Shown one piece after another: positions 15,464-55,524 of a stretch of 64,000 nt of DNA. The stretch comes from Bifidobacterium breve (GTDB taxonomy: Bacteria > Actinomycetota > Actinomycetes > Nanopelagicales > Nanopelagicaceae), in the NCBI GenBank assembly GCA_945898065.1, contig CAMDHH010000002.1:1-64000 (forward strand), read 5' to 3'. Within the stretch, counting starts at the first letter, position 1, and the number at the start of each line of letters is the position of its first letter. Both the position numbers and the translations under genes were made by a program. The notes below the pieces were generated by a model that worked only from the letters and a program-made list of their open reading frames with translations, had not been told where the DNA came from and searched no databases.

Positions 15464-16569
15464 GGCAAAATAACTTGCCTGACAACTTCACCACCATGGA
15501 GTGCATCCATTGCTTCATTTACTTCACTCATGGGACGAGTGAGAGAAACTAATTTCTCAACTGGTAATTTTCCTTCTCGCCAATATTGAACGAATTCGGG
15601 AATATCTTTACGCGGATCACCTGATCCCATATACGAGCCTTGAAGAGTCTTTACTTCAGTAACCAAAGATGCAGCGGGAATACCAAGAAGGGCTGAAGGA
15701 TCTGGTAATCCAATTGTTGTTACTACACCACCTCTAATAGTCATTTCATATGCTTGTTGCAGTGCTTCTACGCGTCCAACAGTTTCGATTGAATAATCGA
15801 CACCATCTTTTACATATTCGCGCACGTTATCCGTCGGTGCTATCGCGATATCGGCACCTAATTCCAGTGCCAATTCACGTTTCATTGCAACTGGGTCTAT
15901 TGCAATAATGGGGGATGCCTTGGAAATAACAGCGCCTATGAGTGCTGCAAGTCCAACTCCACCAAGGCCCCAAATTCCCACCGATGCACCTGATGGAACT
16001 TTTGCTCCATTTCTTACCGCACCAATTCCTGTTAGAAGTGCACAACCAAATATTGCAGTGCTTGAAAGTGGTAGATCAGATGGAATTTTTACAAGTGAGC
16101 GTCTATCCAGCACCATATGTTGGCTGTAGCAAGAAACTCCGTTGTAGTGATGAATTAGTTTACCGTTGAATGAGATGCGCGATCCACCACGCGACATTTC
16201 ACCTCTAACATTTGCTGCTGAACCGACTGAACAATATGCAGGGATTCCATGTAGACATTGTCTGCACTCTCCGCAGGGCGGCATAAAAATGATTGAGACT
16301 GTGTCACCAATTTTTAGATCTTTGACTCCAGCGCCAAGTTCTTCAACCACCCCAACACCTTCGTGACCACCGATGAGTGGAATAGGTCTTGGACGCGATC
16401 CATTGACAATAGATAAATCAGAATGACAAATACCCGCACCTGTTATGCGTAGAAGTACTTCTCCTTCGCGGGGCTTCTCTAAATCAATTTCAACAAGTTC
16501 AAAAGGTTTTGACTGGGCATAAGGCATGGGAAGTCCATTTTTCATAAGAAGAGCCGCAACAGTTTTCAT
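15460..16569 (-). CDS. Zinc-dependent alcohol dehydrogenase (MDR superfamily)
   Basis: GAGICHSDLSIVNG, GHEGVGVVEELGAGV, PPCGECRQCLHGIPAYC, GLGGVGLAALIGA. Confidence 0.92.
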   Translation of the reverse strand: MKTVAALLMKNGLPMPYAQSKPFELVEIDLEKPREGEVLLRITGAGICHSDLSIVNGSRPRPIPLIGGHEGVGVVEELGAGVKDLKIGDTVSIIFMPPCGECRQCLHGIPAYCSVGSAANVRGEMSRGGSRISFNGKLIHHYNGVSCYSQHMVLDRRSLVKIPSDLPLSSTAIFGCALLTGIGAVRNGAKVPSGASVGIWGLGGVGLAALIGAVISKASPIIAIDPVAMKRELALELGADIAIAPTDNVREYVKDGVDYSIETVGRVEALQQAYEMTIRGGVVTTIGLPDPSALLGIPAASLVTEVKTLQGSYMGSGDPRKDIPEFVQYWREGKLPVEKLVSLTRPMSEVNEAMDALHGGEVVRQVILP

Positions 16570-38648: not shown

Positions 38649-38715
38649 AGCGCAGAGAATACTGTTGAATCTCTCGATTCTCTTATTATTGTGAAAGGCG
38701 CTAGAATTGGGTTGT

Positions 38716-38837
38716 TGTTATCGGGGTCGATGTAATTTCGAACCGGCGGTTATAGTCCGCGACCCGCACATATCCAATGGGCGGTTGACTCAGTGAAACT
38801 CTGAGACCGACGGTTAAAGTCCGGATGAGAGATAACA
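38716..38837 (+). promoter_or_regulatory. FMN riboswitch (RFN element)
   Basis: Conserved segments GAACCGGCGGTTATAGTCCGCGA ... GACTCAGTGAAACTCTGAGACCGACGGTTAAAGTCCGGATGAGAG, closed by P1 TGTTATC/GATAACA; directly upstream of ribD. Confidence 0.97.
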
Positions 38838-38853
38838 GCGGAATCGGTGCACC

Positions 38854-42552: not shown

Positions 42553-44214
42553 TTACTTCTTCTTATAACCAGTTGGGCACTTAGGATTTGCGCCAGTTAC
42601 TTTCTTACTGGTCTTTCCCTTCACGCAGGTAATAGAAATCGATTTCTTTGCAACCGATTTTGTTGGCCCCGCGATAACTACATCCTGGGATAACTTCACG
42701 TTGATGAGAGGAGTAGAGAAAGTAAATCCTTTGGCCGATAAATAAAGCCATCCGTTTTTCTCGTTGACAGTAGTTGTTGCAACCTTCTTCTCACCCTCTG
42801 ATGAAGTAATCGAAATCTCAGCCCTAATCGGCGCTTTACTAAATCCGTAAATGCAACGAGCGACATCGCTGCGCAAGCTCAGATCATAAGATCCCGATGC
42901 CTCAATTCCGCTAGCTTCAAAGTGTGGTGATGAAACCTTGTATGAAAGTGAACTAGTTTCCTTATCAAATACTGGTGGACCAGCTGCATATGCCAAAGCA
43001 TTTGTAGTTACTAATCCCGCTAGGTTTCCACTTTTATCAGAGCACTTGCGCGTTGATTCATCTTGTCCGTAGCCGTAGTTCAGCGTTTTGAAAGACCAGT
43101 AATAATCTGTCGTTGTTGCCTTATCTTTATAAGAAGGTACGAAGCCTGAAACGAGTGCCAAAGCTCTAGGCCCTGACAGCATTTCAGAGATCTTTGTTGA
43201 GCCAATTCCATCGCCCTGTACACCAAAGGATTCATAAGTGAGTATTAAATCGCGAATCTTCTGAGGGATCTCTGCATTTGGAACTGTGAAATCGAGCGAA
43301 GGTACTTTTACTGGCTCTGCTTCAATTGAGATTTCTGCGCCGCTCTTCCAATCCTTTGTCACAATTGTAGGAAGATAGAGGCGGCCGTGATACCAACCCT
43401 CAGGCTTTTTTCCCATTCGAAGTGTTATTCCAAATCGATACCCTGTCGGAAATTCTCGAATAGCTTGACAGACATTTAGATCAGTTGCTACGCACGTTGA
43501 TCCATCGGGTGCGTACTGCCTGCCATTGCTACCGTAGATTCCTACACCATCTCTATTATCGGTGGCTGTAGTCAATCGGAACGTTCCCGAAATTTCTTCG
43601 ACTGGCAAAATTCCTGCAGTCATGTCACTCAATTTTAATTTTATATCTGCAACTGGTGTACCCGAAGACTTTCGTTGGCTCATTATTGATTGTACAGAAA
43701 CAAAATAAGTGTCTTTGCCCGCGCTATTTATTACACCTGGCAGTTTCCACACAGCGCCCATACCTGTGCTCTGAGGCAAGTTGATAGAAGAATTTTCTTT
43801 GACTATATATCGAGGATCATTGGGAGCAGTCTTTACATACTGTCCAGCGGTTCTATTTCCGCTGGCATCGACTGCCCAGATTTCGGCAATACACGCAATG
43901 TTTGTTGTATCTGAACAAATATCCCAATTGGTATAGCCAAACATTTCGGGAGCATCCGTGCAAATTTTGTCAGCGAGATCTTGGCATATCAGCCAACTCT
44001 CTTTAACATTGATATCGCCTTGAGCATAGAGAACCGATGGCATTGTCCCAAGTTCATTATTTTCTTTGAATGCCAATCCAAGACTTGCAACATCTGGTGA
44101 GATCTTCATGCCAGCCTGTGCAACATTGGCCTGCATAGTCGATGCCAAGAGAAGGGCTGCAAGCATCGTTACCCCGAATTTACGGACTGACTTCATCTGC
44201 CCCACCTTTGCCAT
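42553..44214 (-). CDS. Secreted protein with C-terminal 'ITCVKGKTSKKVTGANPKCPTGYKKK' tail
   Basis: Signal peptide region TMLAALLLASTMQANVAQA; C-terminal tail; full-length similarity to 53914..55524 product (e.g. DLSLRSDVARCIYGFSKAPIRAEISI). Confidence 0.82.
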   Translation of the reverse strand: MAKVGQMKSVRKFGVTMLAALLLASTMQANVAQAGMKISPDVASLGLAFKENNELGTMPSVLYAQGDINVKESWLICQDLADKICTDAPEMFGYTNWDICSDTTNIACIAEIWAVDASGNRTAGQYVKTAPNDPRYIVKENSSINLPQSTGMGAVWKLPGVINSAGKDTYFVSVQSIMSQRKSSGTPVADIKLKLSDMTAGILPVEEISGTFRLTTATDNRDGVGIYGSNGRQYAPDGSTCVATDLNVCQAIREFPTGYRFGITLRMGKKPEGWYHGRLYLPTIVTKDWKSGAEISIEAEPVKVPSLDFTVPNAEIPQKIRDLILTYESFGVQGDGIGSTKISEMLSGPRALALVSGFVPSYKDKATTTDYYWSFKTLNYGYGQDESTRKCSDKSGNLAGLVTTNALAYAAGPPVFDKETSSLSYKVSSPHFEASGIEASGSYDLSLRSDVARCIYGFSKAPIRAEISITSSEGEKKVATTTVNEKNGWLYLSAKGFTFSTPLINVKLSQDVVIAGPTKSVAKKSISITCVKGKTSKKVTGANPKCPTGYKKK

Positions 44215-50062: not shown

Positions 50063-50079
50063 ACTTTTCTAGGAATACA

Positions 50080-50112
50080 GAAAGCCCCGCAGATTTCTCT
50101 AGCGGGGCTTTC
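50080..50112 (+). terminator. Intrinsic terminator after yoeB
   Basis: GAAAGCCCCGC-AGATTTCTCTA-GCGGGGCTTTC perfect 11-bp stem. Confidence 0.85.
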
Positions 50113-50275
50113 AACTGTAACTCTTGCAGATCTGCAATTCCATTGACTATGGAGCTGCAGATTAGCACGAGCACCCTCTTGACTGAAGTTTTGTAATCAT
50201 AACACCGAAGTTATCAACAACATCTGAAAAACTAAATATTCATCTAGTCCTGTACATCTAAGTTTCAACTTGCGT

Positions 50276-50349
50276 ACCGCTGTAGCTCAGCGGATAGAGC
50301 ACCCTTTTGACTGAAGGGATGGTCGCGAGTTCGAATCTCGCCAGCGGTA
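50276..50349 (+). tRNA. tRNA-like gene, anticodon uncertain (loop TTGACTG; geometry gives GAC)
   Basis: ACCGCTG/CAGCGGT acceptor, TA GCTC-AGCGGATA-GAGC D arm, CCCTT-TTGACTG-AAGGG anticodon arm, GCGAG-TTCGAAT-CTCGC T arm; 74 nt with a 6-nt variable region. Confidence 0.65.
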
Positions 50350-50359
50350 CTCACACAAG

Positions 50360-50394
50360 ATGGCTCTTGGCTTAGTCACCAAGGGCCATTTTGC
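50360..50394 (+). terminator. Terminator-like hairpin after first tRNA-like gene
   Basis: ATGGCTCTTGG-CTTAGTCA-CCAAGGGCCATTTTG. Confidence 0.7.
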
Positions 50395-50453
50395 ATGTTC
50401 AGTGTCCGTACTGAGACACATCGGAGACTCGCTATTAGTAATCTTTTCTATGA

Positions 50454-50678
50454 CTACGAGTTAGTCACCGTAATAAGTTTGCCCGAATCAGGAAGGGCAA
50501 TAACGTTTAGTTCGCCTTCTTTTTGTGCCAACTTAATTAGTGCAGCCATGCCGCCAACATCCTTAGCGGAGGTAGCTTTAGCAGGGGCTTTAGTTGCGGC
50601 CTGTGCCGGTAGAGCAGTTGATGTAAGCGCAAATGCAAGCACGGTGCCTACAACTGCGCTAATGATCTTCTTGTTCAT
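50454..50678 (-). pseudogene. Truncated N-terminal fragment resembling an ABC transporter solute-binding protein
   Basis: MNKKIISAVVGTVLAFALTSTALPAQAATKAPAKATSAKDVGGMAALIKLAQKEGELNVIALPDSGKLITVTNS*: signal peptide plus 'LIKLAQKEGELNVIALP' first strand of SBPs, then abrupt stop. Confidence 0.5.
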
Positions 50679-50996
50679 GTTTCTCCTTAGTTAGGGAGAG
50701 GCGAGCAAAACGCTTGAATGTAAAGAATCGCCAATCGTGAGCCAACGAGCCACTGAATAGCGAATGAATAGATAGTTGCTGCAGAAAAATATTTGAGCAA
50801 CCTACAACTATGGCACTCCCGAGTGAATTCGAATTTCTGGGAGATTTTCACATCTTGGCGATGATATTTTGCCAGAAGTTAAATCTTTGTTCACCTAAGT
50901 AAGTCATTTATATTCACGGTTGAAAATTACTCTCTCGCTGACTCAAGGGCCCCTCCCGAGAGTAAATGAAGTTCACCCGAAACTTACTTAGACCTC

Positions 50997-52994
50997 ATGG
51001 AGGACACTTTGAAAATCAAGAATGCCGTAGCGGCATTAGCAGTAACTACACTATTTGCTCCGATGTCAATCGCTGATGCAAGCATGTACTCAGATTCAGG
51101 AAGAGCCGTAACCCTTACTATTTTGCATAATAACGATGGCGAATCTGCTCTTTTGCCCGAACAGTCTTACGCACTCCCACAAGGAAAATTAATCTACGGA
51201 AGTGCTGCAGCATTTTCAACAGTGATGAAGCGAGAAATTTCCGCAGCCAAGCAAGCAAATAATGCTGTGCTCTCTGTCTACGCTGGAGATTCATTCCTTG
51301 CTAGCAAGAACTTAATCTGTTCAGAGCCTGCAAATCCCACTTCGACTATCCCTGTATATGACGGTCTCGCACAATCATTGATGCCTTATGACGTTCACAT
51401 CTTAGGAAACCATGAATTTGATTATGGAACAGGATTCCTCAAGCGCTATATCGACTCTTTCTCACAAAAGGTTCGCTATCAGTTCATTTCAGGAAACCTA
51501 GATTTTTCGGCTAACACTGATCTTTCATCAGTGTCCGTAAAGTCAAAGCCGATTCTTCGTGGAAGAGTTGTTGGTAAGAAAGTTGGAGAGTCCTACATTC
51601 ACAAGGATTACACAACGGGTGCAATCTTTGGAGTTGTCAGTGCTATTACTCCAACCCTTCGAACAATCTCTTCACCAGGAACAGCTAAAGTCACAACTAT
51701 TGATATCAAGGCCACAGCCGAGTTAATCAATAAGCAGGTCGAATCGCTAGAAAAACAGGGCGTCAATAAGATCATTCTCGTTAGCCACCTACAAGGTGTT
51801 GCATACGACAAGGAGCTAGTAGCCCTGTTGAAGAATGTGGATGTCGCTGTCGCCGGTGGTGGAGATGATCTATTGACTAGCCCAGATGTTGCCGAAAGCA
51901 TTCAAGTTATTCCAGGTGAAGGTAAGGCTGTCGGTAAGTATCCCGAGATGGTCAAGGATGCCAATGGCGTCGATGTTCCACTGATTACAACTAAAGGAAA
52001 TTACAACTACCTCGGTCGCTTCGATGTCTCATTTGATGAAGATGGCAAGTTGAGCTCATATAACAAAACCACTTCATATCCACGACGCGTTGTTCCAGCA
52101 TCTACTGTTGCTGGCTCACTTGCTATCAAAGATGTCGTCAACCCAGATAAGCGCATCGTTGATTCAGTTGAAAAGCCACTCAACGCTTGCTTAGTTGGAT
52201 TTTCTAAGTCAATTGCTTCAAGTCAGATCGTATTTGCCACAGATCGCGGCAGTGCAACTGTTCTTGGAGTTAGAACTGCAGAAACCAATGGTGGAAATTT
52301 AGTTACTGATGCATTTATGCAGGCATACTCCACACGAGCTGCAGCAGTTGGCTTACCTGCGGCCGGAAGTGCTAACCCTGTCGTTGCCGTACAAAACGGT
52401 GGTGGAATTAGACAAGGTGGTGGAACAACACTTCCAACAAATGGTCTTGTCGGGGCAATAAACCGAGGCAATACCTTTGATCTACTTCCCTTCGATAATC
52501 GCCTTGTTGCGGTGACAAATGTCAGCGCCGCAGATATGAAAGATATTTTCGAGCGATCATGTTCGGTCAGCACAGCAGGTGGTGGACAGTTCCTTCAAAT
52601 CAGCGGTATGAAGGTTTCGTGTTCACGTACTGAGAGTGCAACTGTAATCTCAACGCCAACAGGAGATGCCTATGCCGGAACAATTACATTACCTGGCAAG
52701 CGAGTAAAGGAAATCACACTCGCTGATGGTCGCGCCATTGTCAAAGATGGAGCAGTTGTCGCAGGTGCGCCAGCTGTCACAATCGTTACAAATCAATTCA
52801 CTGCCGATGGTGGAGATAACTATCCAACATTCGTGAAATTGACCAAGGTTGCATTTGGAGTCTCTTACGAGCAGGCTCTCTATGACTATCTCTTGAGCTT
52901 TGCAAAGAACGCCGCAGGCCTACCAGAGGTACCATCAACTGATACACGCTATATACAGAGAACTGGTGAGGGTCGCTTCACCTGGTTGCCATAA
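50997..52994 (+). CDS. Secreted 5'-nucleotidase / bifunctional metallophosphatase
   Basis: LTILHNNDGES, VYAGDSFLAS, ILGNHEFDYGTGFLKRYI, VSHLQGVAYDKEL, NGGGIRQGG, DGGDNYPTF. Confidence 0.9.
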   Translation: MEDTLKIKNAVAALAVTTLFAPMSIADASMYSDSGRAVTLTILHNNDGESALLPEQSYALPQGKLIYGSAAAFSTVMKREISAAKQANNAVLSVYAGDSFLASKNLICSEPANPTSTIPVYDGLAQSLMPYDVHILGNHEFDYGTGFLKRYIDSFSQKVRYQFISGNLDFSANTDLSSVSVKSKPILRGRVVGKKVGESYIHKDYTTGAIFGVVSAITPTLRTISSPGTAKVTTIDIKATAELINKQVESLEKQGVNKIILVSHLQGVAYDKELVALLKNVDVAVAGGGDDLLTSPDVAESIQVIPGEGKAVGKYPEMVKDANGVDVPLITTKGNYNYLGRFDVSFDEDGKLSSYNKTTSYPRRVVPASTVAGSLAIKDVVNPDKRIVDSVEKPLNACLVGFSKSIASSQIVFATDRGSATVLGVRTAETNGGNLVTDAFMQAYSTRAAAVGLPAAGSANPVVAVQNGGGIRQGGGTTLPTNGLVGAINRGNTFDLLPFDNRLVAVTNVSAADMKDIFERSCSVSTAGGGQFLQISGMKVSCSRTESATVISTPTGDAYAGTITLPGKRVKEITLADGRAIVKDGAVVAGAPAVTIVTNQFTADGGDNYPTFVKLTKVAFGVSYEQALYDYLLSFAKNAAGLPEVPSTDTRYIQRTGEGRFTWLP

Positions 52995-53007
52995 TCTAGC
53001 AAGTTAG

Positions 53008-53060
53008 AAAATCCCCGCTAATACTGAGTGCGAAAGTGCTCATGTGTTAGCGGGGATTTT
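53008..53060. terminator. Strong terminator hairpin downstream of the nucleotidase
   Basis: AAAATCCCCGCTAA ... TTAGCGGGGATTTT 14-bp stem, followed by T. Confidence 0.85.
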
Positions 53061-53120
53061 TGCATCCGTGTAAGTCAATATTCAAAATCAATATGTGGTC
53101 ACATCTTCGTGCTCGAAATA

Positions 53121-53561
53121 CTAAGTAGCTAATTGAGTATCAGTTTCACCAACAACGGCTGAATCAACCCCAAGAACCGACTCCTTTACCGAGAGCATGT
53201 ATGTGAGATTAGTTGGCCCACTTTCACTCGTGACTCCAACCTCCTGAGTAATCTCGTTATTAGTAATAGTGCAGCCATTGAACTCATAGCCCTGATTCTC
53301 AACGAGCATTCCATACTCAGAACTGATGATGGAAACAAAGCGGTTAATATCGACTGCCATTCTAAAAGATGGTGAAGCGAATGAGTAAGCAGAATCCCAT
53401 TCCTCTTTTGCAATCGCATCTATCTGCCCCGAAATATGTTCTTCAACTAACTGCGCTTGCTTATTTGTACAGGTGCCATCGACCATCTCTTCGAATGCAG
53501 CCTTTTGAGAACATCCACTGAGCACCAGCGCCACTACAACTATTGCAATCCAATGCTTCAT
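53121..53561 (-). CDS. Putative lipoprotein (146 aa)
   Basis: MKHWIAIVVVALVLSGCSQK lipobox (LSGC). Confidence 0.75.
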   Translation of the reverse strand: MKHWIAIVVVALVLSGCSQKAAFEEMVDGTCTNKQAQLVEEHISGQIDAIAKEEWDSAYSFASPSFRMAVDINRFVSIISSEYGMLVENQGYEFNGCTITNNEITQEVGVTSESGPTNLTYMLSVKESVLGVDSAVVGETDTQLAT

Positions 53562-53641
53562 TGCTCAATTCTAATCAACGCCTAGATGAGTTGTCTTAGC
53601 GAAAGTAAATAGCACCCTAGATATCCACAGTAAAAGCAAAA

Positions 53642-53674
53642 AACCTAAATCGGTTGTATCAACTGATTTAGGTT
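53642..53674 (-). terminator. Minus-strand intrinsic-terminator-like hairpin
   Basis: AACCTAAATC...GATTTAGGTT perfect 10-bp stem with A-rich left flank (T-rich on minus strand). Confidence 0.6.
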
Positions 53675-53685
53675 CTGCCTTGCGT

Positions 53686-53759
53686 ACCGCTGTAGCTCAA
53701 TGGATAGAGCGACTCCATAACTAAGAGAATGGTAGCGGGTTCGATTCCCGCCAGCGGTA
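53686..53759 (+). tRNA. tRNA-like gene with degenerate anticodon stem (anticodon not assigned)
   Basis: Same acceptor (ACCGCTG/CAGCGGT, extended to GCGTACCGCTG/CAGCGGTACGC), D arm GCTC-AATGGATA-GAGC and T arm GCGGG-TTCGATT-CCCGC as the 50276 element; only 3 of 5 canonical anticodon-stem pairs. Confidence 0.5.
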
Positions 53760-53768
53760 CGCACCGCG

Positions 53769-53806
53769 AGTGGCCTCACGCTAGTTACGTGGGGCCACTT
53801 TGTTTT
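53769..53806 (+). terminator. Terminator-like hairpin after second tRNA-like gene
   Basis: AGTGGCCTCACG-CTAGTTA-CGTGGGGCCACTTTGTTTT. Confidence 0.75.
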
Positions 53807-53913: not shown

Positions 53914-55524
53914 ATGAGAAAAAGCATGAGGGTTATTTTCACCCTGCTTCTCTCCACCAGCGTTGCAGCATCTGTTGTCACCGGAATCCTTCCAGCACAC
54001 TCTGCAACTTCGTCGCTGCCAAGTACGTGGCCGACTGTGCCCTCCATTGGATTTTCATCCAGTGATGACAGCCTGATCGAAACATTTTCATACATCACAG
54101 GTTTTTCATACGCCGAAGGTGCCACCAGCGGTATCTACACCCGCACCGTCTCCTGCTCATCTGTCGATGATGCAGCATGCGCCGGCTCAGATTCCATCTT
54201 TGCGCAAATGATCTTGCCGCCATGTTCGCCCACCGCTACAGAAATGTGTATCGAATCATTAGAAGTCTCGGATAAACAAGGTGTATTGAAAAAAGCGACC
54301 TATGGATATGAATTACAAGGAGTGAAATATCCAGCGAGCACAGTTCGAAATTCTCCAGCAGGTTCTTCTGCAAGTGTGTGGAACGCAAAAGAATCCCTGA
54401 ATTCATCAGGCGCTGATGAATATGCAGTAGTAGTGAGTGCAACTTTGCAAAACTATCAAAACAAGGGTTGCACGCAATTTCTCACCACACCATGTGCCTT
54501 CACCCGAGGTTTCCGCGCGAGGGTTTATCCAATCAATCGCGTTGCAAGCAGCGCCACAAACCAAGATTGTCTTTGGGTAGAAGGACAAAATTGTGCGAAG
54601 AAAGTTGATTTCGCCCCCGGAGCACGCGCAGCCCTGACCGTGCGAATTGATAATTCACTTACCGGTTTTCTCTTTGGCCGAATAAAGAACGTGGGCCTTG
54701 AACTAACCCCACTTTCAACAACTGCCAACATACTTCGAGTCGAAGCAGATCCAATCGATGTTCCCAAGATTTATGCCTACGTTGCCAAAAGTGAACTCAG
54801 TAAATATCCCAAAATCGTGGAGTACTGGAAAACTCGCAGACAGCAATTAGCTGCAACAGATTTCACAAGTAACGACACAGTTGATACCGGACCAGCCCCA
54901 GAATGGGCGATGGGGGATTTCCAAGCATTTGAGGAACTCGTAAAATCAGGCCCACTTGTTAGTTCAATCTGGAGATTTGGCACGCAAGCAGGAAGTGGAA
55001 CTGGCAGTAAATGCTTCGATGATAAAAGCAAACTTCAAGGCTTAGTCACCACCAATGCACCCACATATCTTCCCAGCCCTCCTGTATTTGAAAATGATGA
55101 ACTCGCATACAAAGTTGCAGGAGCACATCACTTAGCCGACGGCGTGACCTTGTTCAAGGGCTCCTACGATCTAGTTCTTCGCAGTGATTTTGCGCGATGC
55201 CTCTATGGCTTCACGAGTGCGCCAATACGAGCAAAAGTTTCAGTTGTCTCCACCGATGGTTCAACGCAAGATATTGCCACTGAATCATTGCGCGAAGATG
55301 CCGCTCGTCAATGGCTATACCTGAGTGCAAGGAATTTCACCTTCTCATCTCCAACCATCAAAGTGAAATTAACCCAAGATGCACCAGCCCCACAAGCAAC
55401 TGCGCAAGCAACAACTAAACCTGCACCAATTGCTAAGAAGAGCATTACCTGCGTCAAGGGCAAGACAACAAAGAAAGTTACGGCAACTAACCCAGCATGC
55501 CCAAAGGGTTATAAGAAGAAGTAA
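53914..55524 (+). CDS. Secreted protein with C-terminal 'ITCVKGKTTKKVTATNPACPKGYKKK' tail
   Basis: Signal peptide (FTLLLSTSVAASVVTGILPAHSA); EMCIESLEVSD; paralogous to the 42553..44214 product. Confidence 0.82.
   Translation: MRKSMRVIFTLLLSTSVAASVVTGILPAHSATSSLPSTWPTVPSIGFSSSDDSLIETFSYITGFSYAEGATSGIYTRTVSCSSVDDAACAGSDSIFAQMILPPCSPTATEMCIESLEVSDKQGVLKKATYGYELQGVKYPASTVRNSPAGSSASVWNAKESLNSSGADEYAVVVSATLQNYQNKGCTQFLTTPCAFTRGFRARVYPINRVASSATNQDCLWVEGQNCAKKVDFAPGARAALTVRIDNSLTGFLFGRIKNVGLELTPLSTTANILRVEADPIDVPKIYAYVAKSELSKYPKIVEYWKTRRQQLAATDFTSNDTVDTGPAPEWAMGDFQAFEELVKSGPLVSSIWRFGTQAGSGTGSKCFDDKSKLQGLVTTNAPTYLPSPPVFENDELAYKVAGAHHLADGVTLFKGSYDLVLRSDFARCLYGFTSAPIRAKVSVVSTDGSTQDIATESLREDAARQWLYLSARNFTFSSPTIKVKLTQDAPAPQATAQATTKPAPIAKKSITCVKGKTTKKVTATNPACPKGYKKK

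Follow-up and report, generated by a model that had tools for sequence, protein, structure and literature searches.

T-box riboswitches present, in a hairpin loop, a codon-like triplet that is complementary to an anticodon loop. RNA I and RNA II of ColE1 are two oppositely transcribed structured RNAs that make first contact by loop-loop kissing, and one of them inhibits the other (PMC11012335). In type VIII toxin-antitoxin systems, of which CreTA is an example, an RNA toxin and an RNA antitoxin are matched by complementarity, and CreT acts via the sequestration of tRNA(UCU) (PMC12737573). The pseudo-tRNA tRNA-Other of Bacillus cereus is a tRNA-shaped RNA with a Trp anticodon, reportedly part of a larger transcript and non-translational, and is reported to affect stress genes (PMC3399842). 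Here, we compare these systems with two genes for transfer RNA (tRNA)-like molecules in a stretch of 64,000 nucleotides (nt), hereafter the window, from a genome recorded as Bifidobacterium breve and placed by GTDB in the Nanopelagicaceae (GCA_945898065.1, contig CAMDHH010000002.1, positions 1 to 64,000). Loci of this kind would give rise to a tRNA-folded RNA that does not serve translation, whose terminator loop kisses its anticodon loop, and which is paired with an antisense RNA at about half of the loci; we put the probability of this interpretation, a regulatory RNA pair, at roughly 0.72. We prefer it to tRNAs for translation because the anticodon loop is complementary to that of its own terminator hairpin and, at about half of the loci, to a small RNA predicted back to back with the gene.

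The tRNA-like RNA and its terminator hairpin

The following features of the tRNA-like genes were identified in the window.
50276–50349, plus strand: tRNA-like domain 1 (ARAGORN Val-gac; from sequence, Rfam, and family alignment A1)
50302–50306/50314–50318, plus strand: anticodon stem of domain 1, with loop TTGACTG at 50307–50313 and a 6-nt variable loop at 50319–50324
50271–50275, plus strand: 5' extension TGCGT of copy 1, pairing with 50349–50353; predicted transcript start at ~50270–50271, from the position of the −10 box
50357–50393, plus strand: terminator hairpin B of copy 1, with loop CTTAGTCA at 50371–50378 (sequence, covariation, and fold)
53686–53759, plus strand: tRNA-like domain 2 (ARAGORN Val-aac), with loop ATAACTA at 53717–53723 and three of five anticodon-stem pairs
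53681–53685, plus strand: 5' extension TGCGT of copy 2, pairing with 53759–53763 (sequence and fold)
53769–53801, plus strand: terminator hairpin B of copy 2, with loop CTAGTTA at 53781–53787

Both genes had been recognized in an initial annotation, and their tRNA fold is borne out by ARAGORN, which reports tRNA-Val(gac) at 50276–50350 and tRNA-Val(aac) at 53686–53760, and by the Rfam tRNA model (55.2 bits, E = 3.8e-9, for copy 1; 48.5 bits, E = 2.5e-7, for copy 2). The folds are not a matter of chance: they are far more stable than those of shuffled sequences (z = −7.0 for copy 1 and −6.6 for copy 2) and have covariance-model relatives in 96 of the 201 genomes of the order. The spacing of 24 nt between the D and T stems of both copies, the intact anticodon stem of copy 1 (CCCTT/AAGGG) with a T at position 37, the anticodon stem of copy 2 with only three of five pairs (ACTCC/AGAGA), and the hairpin behind each gene are all as the initial annotation had described them. 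Its wording was too strong in calling the two bodies near-identical, which are alike but share only 77% of their positions, and it correctly noted the extended acceptor helix of copy 2 but stopped at 11 base pairs (bp), one short of the perfect 12-bp helix (TGCGTACCGCTG/CAGCGGTACGCA). The acceptor helix of copy 1 also reaches 12 bp, with one mismatch.

The comparison with related genomes suggested at that stage revealed a family of such elements. A DNA search detected relatives in 46 of the 61 genomes of the genus, with ordinary tRNA-Arg genes among the weaker matches. Covariance model R1, built on the entire element, scores true members at ~70–140 bits and ordinary tRNAs at no more than ~68 bits. 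It places members (E ≤ 1e-15) in the above-mentioned 96 genomes and in 11 of the 16 genera searched, with 0–7 copies per genome across the order. The named records with elements are freshwater acI actinobacteria, including Planktophila, Nanopelagicus, IMCC25003, and IMCC26077; of the cultured acI strains, MMS-21-148 has elements as well. The elements occupy the same place in close relatives and also occur in tandem.

All covariation counts are based on an alignment of 67 elements (A1), whose stems are paired in 91% of the cells and show 432 two-sided changes, compared with 133 in shuffled data. Such changes back the acceptor, T, anticodon, and terminator stems; the acceptor helix covaries also beyond position 73 (columns 8–12/87–91), and the extended helix is 93% paired. 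The tertiary Levitt pair 15–48 covaries as well (GC in 46, AU in 10, and UA in 7 elements), which, together with the covariation of the stems, argues for selection on an L-shaped RNA. The suggestion that the genes are decaying copies is contradicted by the compensatory changes, which maintain both structure and pairing. The 24-nt spacing recurs in 100 of 139 members, which rules out a sequencing error; most of these members have bulged or mismatched anticodon stems. Position 37 is T or G, and A35 and C36 are nearly invariant across the family. An anticodon loop of 8 nt was rejected as the poorer fit, since seven loop nucleotides plus a single bulged base describe the data better.

A feature of the family that had been overlooked in the initial annotation, together with the divergent antisense unit upstream, is the complementarity of the anticodon loop to the loop of the terminator hairpin 8–10 nt downstream of the tRNA-like gene. 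In copy 1, AGTCA in hairpin B (50374–50378) is complementary to TGACT in the anticodon loop (50308–50312), and in copy 2, TAGTTA in the hairpin loop pairs with TAACTA (53718–53723) over 6 bp. Across the alignment, this loop-loop helix is 93% paired and has 37 two-sided cells, compared with 12.7 in shuffled data (0 of 500 shuffles), whereas controls with a slid register are only 8–50% paired. Position 34 forms GC in 53 members, AU in 11, and CG in 1; position 37 forms UA in 34 and GC in 21; and position 38 forms AU in 45, plus other combinations. All four bases at position 34 are compensated (GAC/GTC, AAC/GTT, CAC/GTG in IMCC26077, and TAC/GTA at locus L278), and a further combination, GGC/GCC, is found at locus L246. 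The mean complementary run of 122 non-redundant members is 5.13 nt, as opposed to 4.06 ± 0.10 nt with shuffled partners (5.15 versus 3.80 nt after thinning to 39 members), whereas the signal is absent from 15 ordinary tRNAs followed by terminators (2.67 versus 3.01 nt). Within genomes, elements pair perfectly with their own hairpin in 13 of 21 cases, compared with 4 of 38 for the hairpins of other copies.

The anticodon arms are hypervariable. Between the near-identical genomes of loci L206 and L207, the arm differs at 10 of 23 positions and the upstream flank at only 3 of 278, yet the anticodon stem remains paired. Among these close relatives, the hairpin loop reads TAGTTA at L205, which fits its AAC loop, and TAGTAA at L207; L206, with a TAC anticodon loop, fits a hairpin with GTA. 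The upstream flanks of loci L111 and L114 agree, whereas their sequences beyond the box do not, and such mosaic loci, including L205 versus L206, indicate that recombination contributes to the variability.

The predicted divergent antisense RNA and the control region

Additional features were identified upstream of the tRNA-like genes.
50075–50189, minus strand: candidate divergent small RNA (RNA-S), with small hairpins and terminator hairpin A at its 3' end
50196–50204, minus strand: extended −10 box TGTTATGAT of RNA-S (TGNTANNNT motif statistics)
50159–50167, minus strand: second, nested extended −10 box TGCTAATCT, for a shorter RNA-S starting at ~50152 (sequence, same motif)
50080–50112: hairpin A (GAAAGCCCCGC..GCGGGGCTTTC), conserved beside the unit, where it would terminate RNA-S on the minus strand
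50211–50219, plus strand: TTWTNCACA (DnaA-box-like motif) in the variant form TTATCAACA, between the divergent promoters
50259–50264, plus strand: candidate −10 box TAAGTT of tRNA-like gene 1 (TANNNT motif statistics)
53621–53629, plus strand: ATATCCACA box upstream of copy 2

Exact copies (9–15 nt) of positions 26–40, which comprise the 5' strand of the anticodon stem and the loop, are present at 66 of 118 loci, usually 90–140 nt upstream of the tRNA-like gene; the longest match averages 8.9 nt, compared with 5.6 nt in shuffled data. These copies at first resembled half a tRNA, but read on the opposite strand they would form the start of a divergent RNA. An extended −10 box (TGNTANNNT) oriented accordingly lies 7–8 nt before this seed at 34 loci and within 24 nt at 55 of 66, compared with 4 expected, 2 of 236 control windows, and none in the opposite orientation. 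The seed is followed by a small hairpin and then a terminator. Every one of the 54 RNA-S candidates has a more stable fold than shuffled sequences (z < −2), and their duplexes with the cognate anticodon arm average −23.3 kcal/mol, compared with −11.4 kcal/mol for non-cognate arms; the cognate arm is the best partner in 42 of 54 cases. At copy 1, the 5' seed of RNA-S (50188→50170) is antisense to 50298–50316 in 18 of 19 nt, and the region 50192→50070 folds with z = −7.6.

On the side of the tRNA-like gene, 54 of 118 loci have a TANNNT box at −17 to −12, compared with an average of 1.8 for other positions, so that the predicted start of the transcript coincides with the first base of the 12-bp helix. 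The strict motif TTWTNCACA occurs at −65 to −61 in 44 of 118 loci and only 4 times in the remaining 230 nt upstream; this inter-promoter motif, or a close variant, resembles a DnaA box in sequence.

Directly upstream of the antisense unit, the window encodes a YefM/YoeB type II toxin-antitoxin pair (PF02604, PF06769; 49358–50062, plus strand), which may share hairpin A: the latter may also serve as terminator of yoeB on the plus strand. At locus L205 (~15850–15900) and at the same place in L206 and L207, a second hairpin A with an antisense-type unit lies between the tRNA-like gene and a glutaredoxin gene further downstream. The hypervariable core of this unit has no match in either of the tRNA-like RNAs observed in that genome, and the unit may be an orphan antisense RNA. 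A genome-wide repeat of half-tRNA units was dismissed because such units are found almost only beside intact elements. The recurring neighbors of the family vary (glutaredoxin, TspO, heliorhodopsin, photolyase-related, DoxX-like, and LexA-like proteins, by sequence), which excludes a fixed partner gene.

Most matches examined in the class beyond the order proved to be ordinary tRNA-Arg genes followed by terminators, and a few were tRNA-Val-like genes without loop pairing; a class-wide presence was rejected. A phage origin was likewise discarded, since the one match on a viral contig belonged to a proteobacterial-looking phage and was an odd tRNA without loop pairing. As regards Omnitrophota, among loci fetched from 145 genomes and one further metagenome-assembled genome (MAG), the same loop pairing is limited to two loci, both in MAGs of Candidatus Omnitrophota. 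Here, the terminator loop TGAGTCAAGG is complementary to the anticodon arm CCTTGACTCA over 10 nt (L169) or 8 nt (L172), by convergence or transfer. Odd tRNA genes to which ARAGORN assigns four-base anticodons (gacg, aacg) occur in a Rhodospirillales MAG (L117) and an IMG/VR contig (L307); upstream of the gene in L117 lies a partial tRNA that shares its TTCTGACGAA core and is accompanied by a terminator-like hairpin.

Elsewhere in the source genome, one Glu-Asp-Phe tRNA cluster is present on two contigs (C5:2196–2523 and C25:15845–16175), either as a real duplication or as an assembly artefact. The window also contains a flavin mononucleotide (FMN) riboswitch (38713–38840, plus strand; 104 bits) and two large secreted-looking paralogues (42553–44214, minus strand; 53914–55524, plus strand) with a common C-terminal motif of the type SITCVKGKT..KKVT..NP.CP.GYKKK; the second has no match in Pfam.

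A probable regulatory RNA pair and its rivals

The combined evidence supports, at the level of sequence, the tRNA fold, the extended helix, the loop-loop pairing, the antisense complementarity, and the promoter- and terminator-like elements. The tRNA-like RNA (RNA-T, ~125 nt) would start at the 5' end of the 12-bp acceptor helix and end in an intrinsic terminator, whose loop would kiss the anticodon loop of the same molecule. We infer that both RNAs are transcribed and that the contact forms in cis and not between molecules; by standard helix geometry, the 12-bp helix, a short linker, and a hairpin of 12–13 bp could span the required distance. At about half of the loci, including copy 1, a divergent promoter would produce RNA-S (~80–115 nt), which would begin with a 9–19-nt seed antisense to the 5' strand and loop of the anticodon arm and carry a separate terminator at its 3' end. 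Invasion of the arm by RNA-S would melt the anticodon stem and break the contact with the terminator loop, thereby silencing or destabilizing RNA-T. The inhibitory effect of RNA-S and the function of RNA-T are likewise inferred, and our leading guess is a pair of regulator and antagonist. Such a pair would agree with the earlier suggestion of regulatory tRNA-like RNAs, which fits the extended acceptor, the loop-loop covariation, and the divergent antisense RNA across many genomes. Perhaps the pair is toxin-antitoxin-like, with tRNA mimicry as its active part and hypervariable pairing arms that keep the modules orthogonal. The more specific scenario of an RNA-only toxin-antitoxin-like or immunity module, in which a terminator-locked tRNA mimic acts on the translation machinery and is neutralized by the divergent antisense RNA, with fast-evolving arms conferring partner specificity, is possible but less likely than not.

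Several observations weigh against a regulatory pair. About 40% of the loci, including copy 2, lack an antisense copy, and the remainder of the genome, which is 85% complete, yielded none for the anticodon arm of copy 2. The loop-loop complementarity is absent at some loci, and several complete genomes lack any element, which must therefore be dispensable. The shuffle tests correct only partly for relatedness. No target or effector protein was found, and the genes next to the elements vary. The invariant A35 and C36 would also suit charging by valyl-tRNA synthetase; these valine-like bases are compatible with synthetase binding but would be equally required by the kissing contact.

The latter bases, the conserved tRNA fold with its tertiary pairs, and the acceptance of both genes by ARAGORN and Rfam speak in favor of specialized translational tRNAs, that is, a set with Val anticodons derived from a tRNA-Arg body, condition-specific and controlled by antisense. 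The elements indeed have the cloverleaf and tertiary pairs of canonical elongator tRNAs but not, by sequence, a 7-bp acceptor with a free 3' end for CCA, since the helix covaries over 12 bp, nor the combination of a 5-bp anticodon stem with a purine at position 37. Because position 37 is T or G, the stem of copy 2 is broken, the acceptor is paired beyond position 73, and the source genome (1.39 Mb, 77 contigs) also encodes ordinary Val(GAC) and Val(TAC) tRNAs, the variant decoders considered in the initial annotation are not supported; in addition, variation in the anticodon arms greatly exceeds that in the remainder of the RNA. We consider this explanation improbable, and hardly more credit is due to the notion that the genes are integration sites, with the upstream partial tRNAs as 5' halves that recombination within the anticodon loop has displaced, and with the shared core as the identity block of an attachment site. 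The upstream copies do match the tRNA-like gene in D-arm-like and anticodon-arm sequence, and the mosaic at L111/L114, the replacement of arms between L206 and L207, and the possibility of tandem elements would suit such a history. However, integration predicts neither a divergent extended −10 box at a fixed distance nor the covariation of the terminator loop, nor a divergent RNA that folds stably; the elements reside in the same place in close relatives, and no integrase was noticed beside them, although the neighbors were not systematically searched for one. The least probable explanation is that of a mere tRNA-shaped terminator or processing unit, stabilized by the kissing contact, with functionless upstream copies. 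Strong terminators, stable folds, and the loci without antisense copy are in agreement with it, but it leaves the locus-specific exact copies behind a consensus promoter and the best-match specificity at 42 of 54 loci unexplained.

Comparison with described systems

Because gene finders label its genes as tRNA-Val, a structured regulatory RNA family may have been hidden in plain sight in a group that ranks among the most abundant freshwater bacteria, where tRNA counts and anticodon assignments would be inflated. Rfam scans gave only the tRNA match for the elements, and the open-access literature, which omits most subscription papers, yielded no description of a tRNA-like/antisense family. Whereas T-box riboswitches have Stem I and an antiterminator in the leader upstream of a gene, the element described here is not the leader of a downstream gene, has no T-box match in Rfam, and finds its partner in cis. 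The accessible part of the account of tRNA-Other makes no mention of an extended acceptor, terminator-loop kissing, or a divergent antisense gene (PMC3399842).

The type VIII systems are similar in that both partners are RNAs, adjacent, and complementary, here at the sequence level only. However, CreA acts through Cascade at a promoter (PMC12737573), whereas we propose direct RNA-RNA pairing, and no Cas genes were noticed nearby. As in ColE1, two structured RNAs, here predicted to be oppositely transcribed, show locus-specific complementarity, but the genes are divergent, non-overlapping, and chromosomal, with no replication primer or plasmid origin seen, and the partner is neither a primer nor an mRNA but an RNA with a true tRNA fold and its own terminator. 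The family resembles antisense-controlled plasmid and toxin-antitoxin modules in that pairing is partner-specific, copies are multiple, the distribution is patchy, and the pairing arms are hypervariable. Although its parts resemble known elements, the combination of a full tRNA fold, a codon-anticodon-like terminator kissing in cis, and a divergent antisense partner, with a pairing arm that is hypervariable yet co-evolving, matches no system found; it is apparently undescribed as an RNA class and invites direct tests of the non-translational action of tRNA mimics and of the diversification of RNA-RNA specificity.

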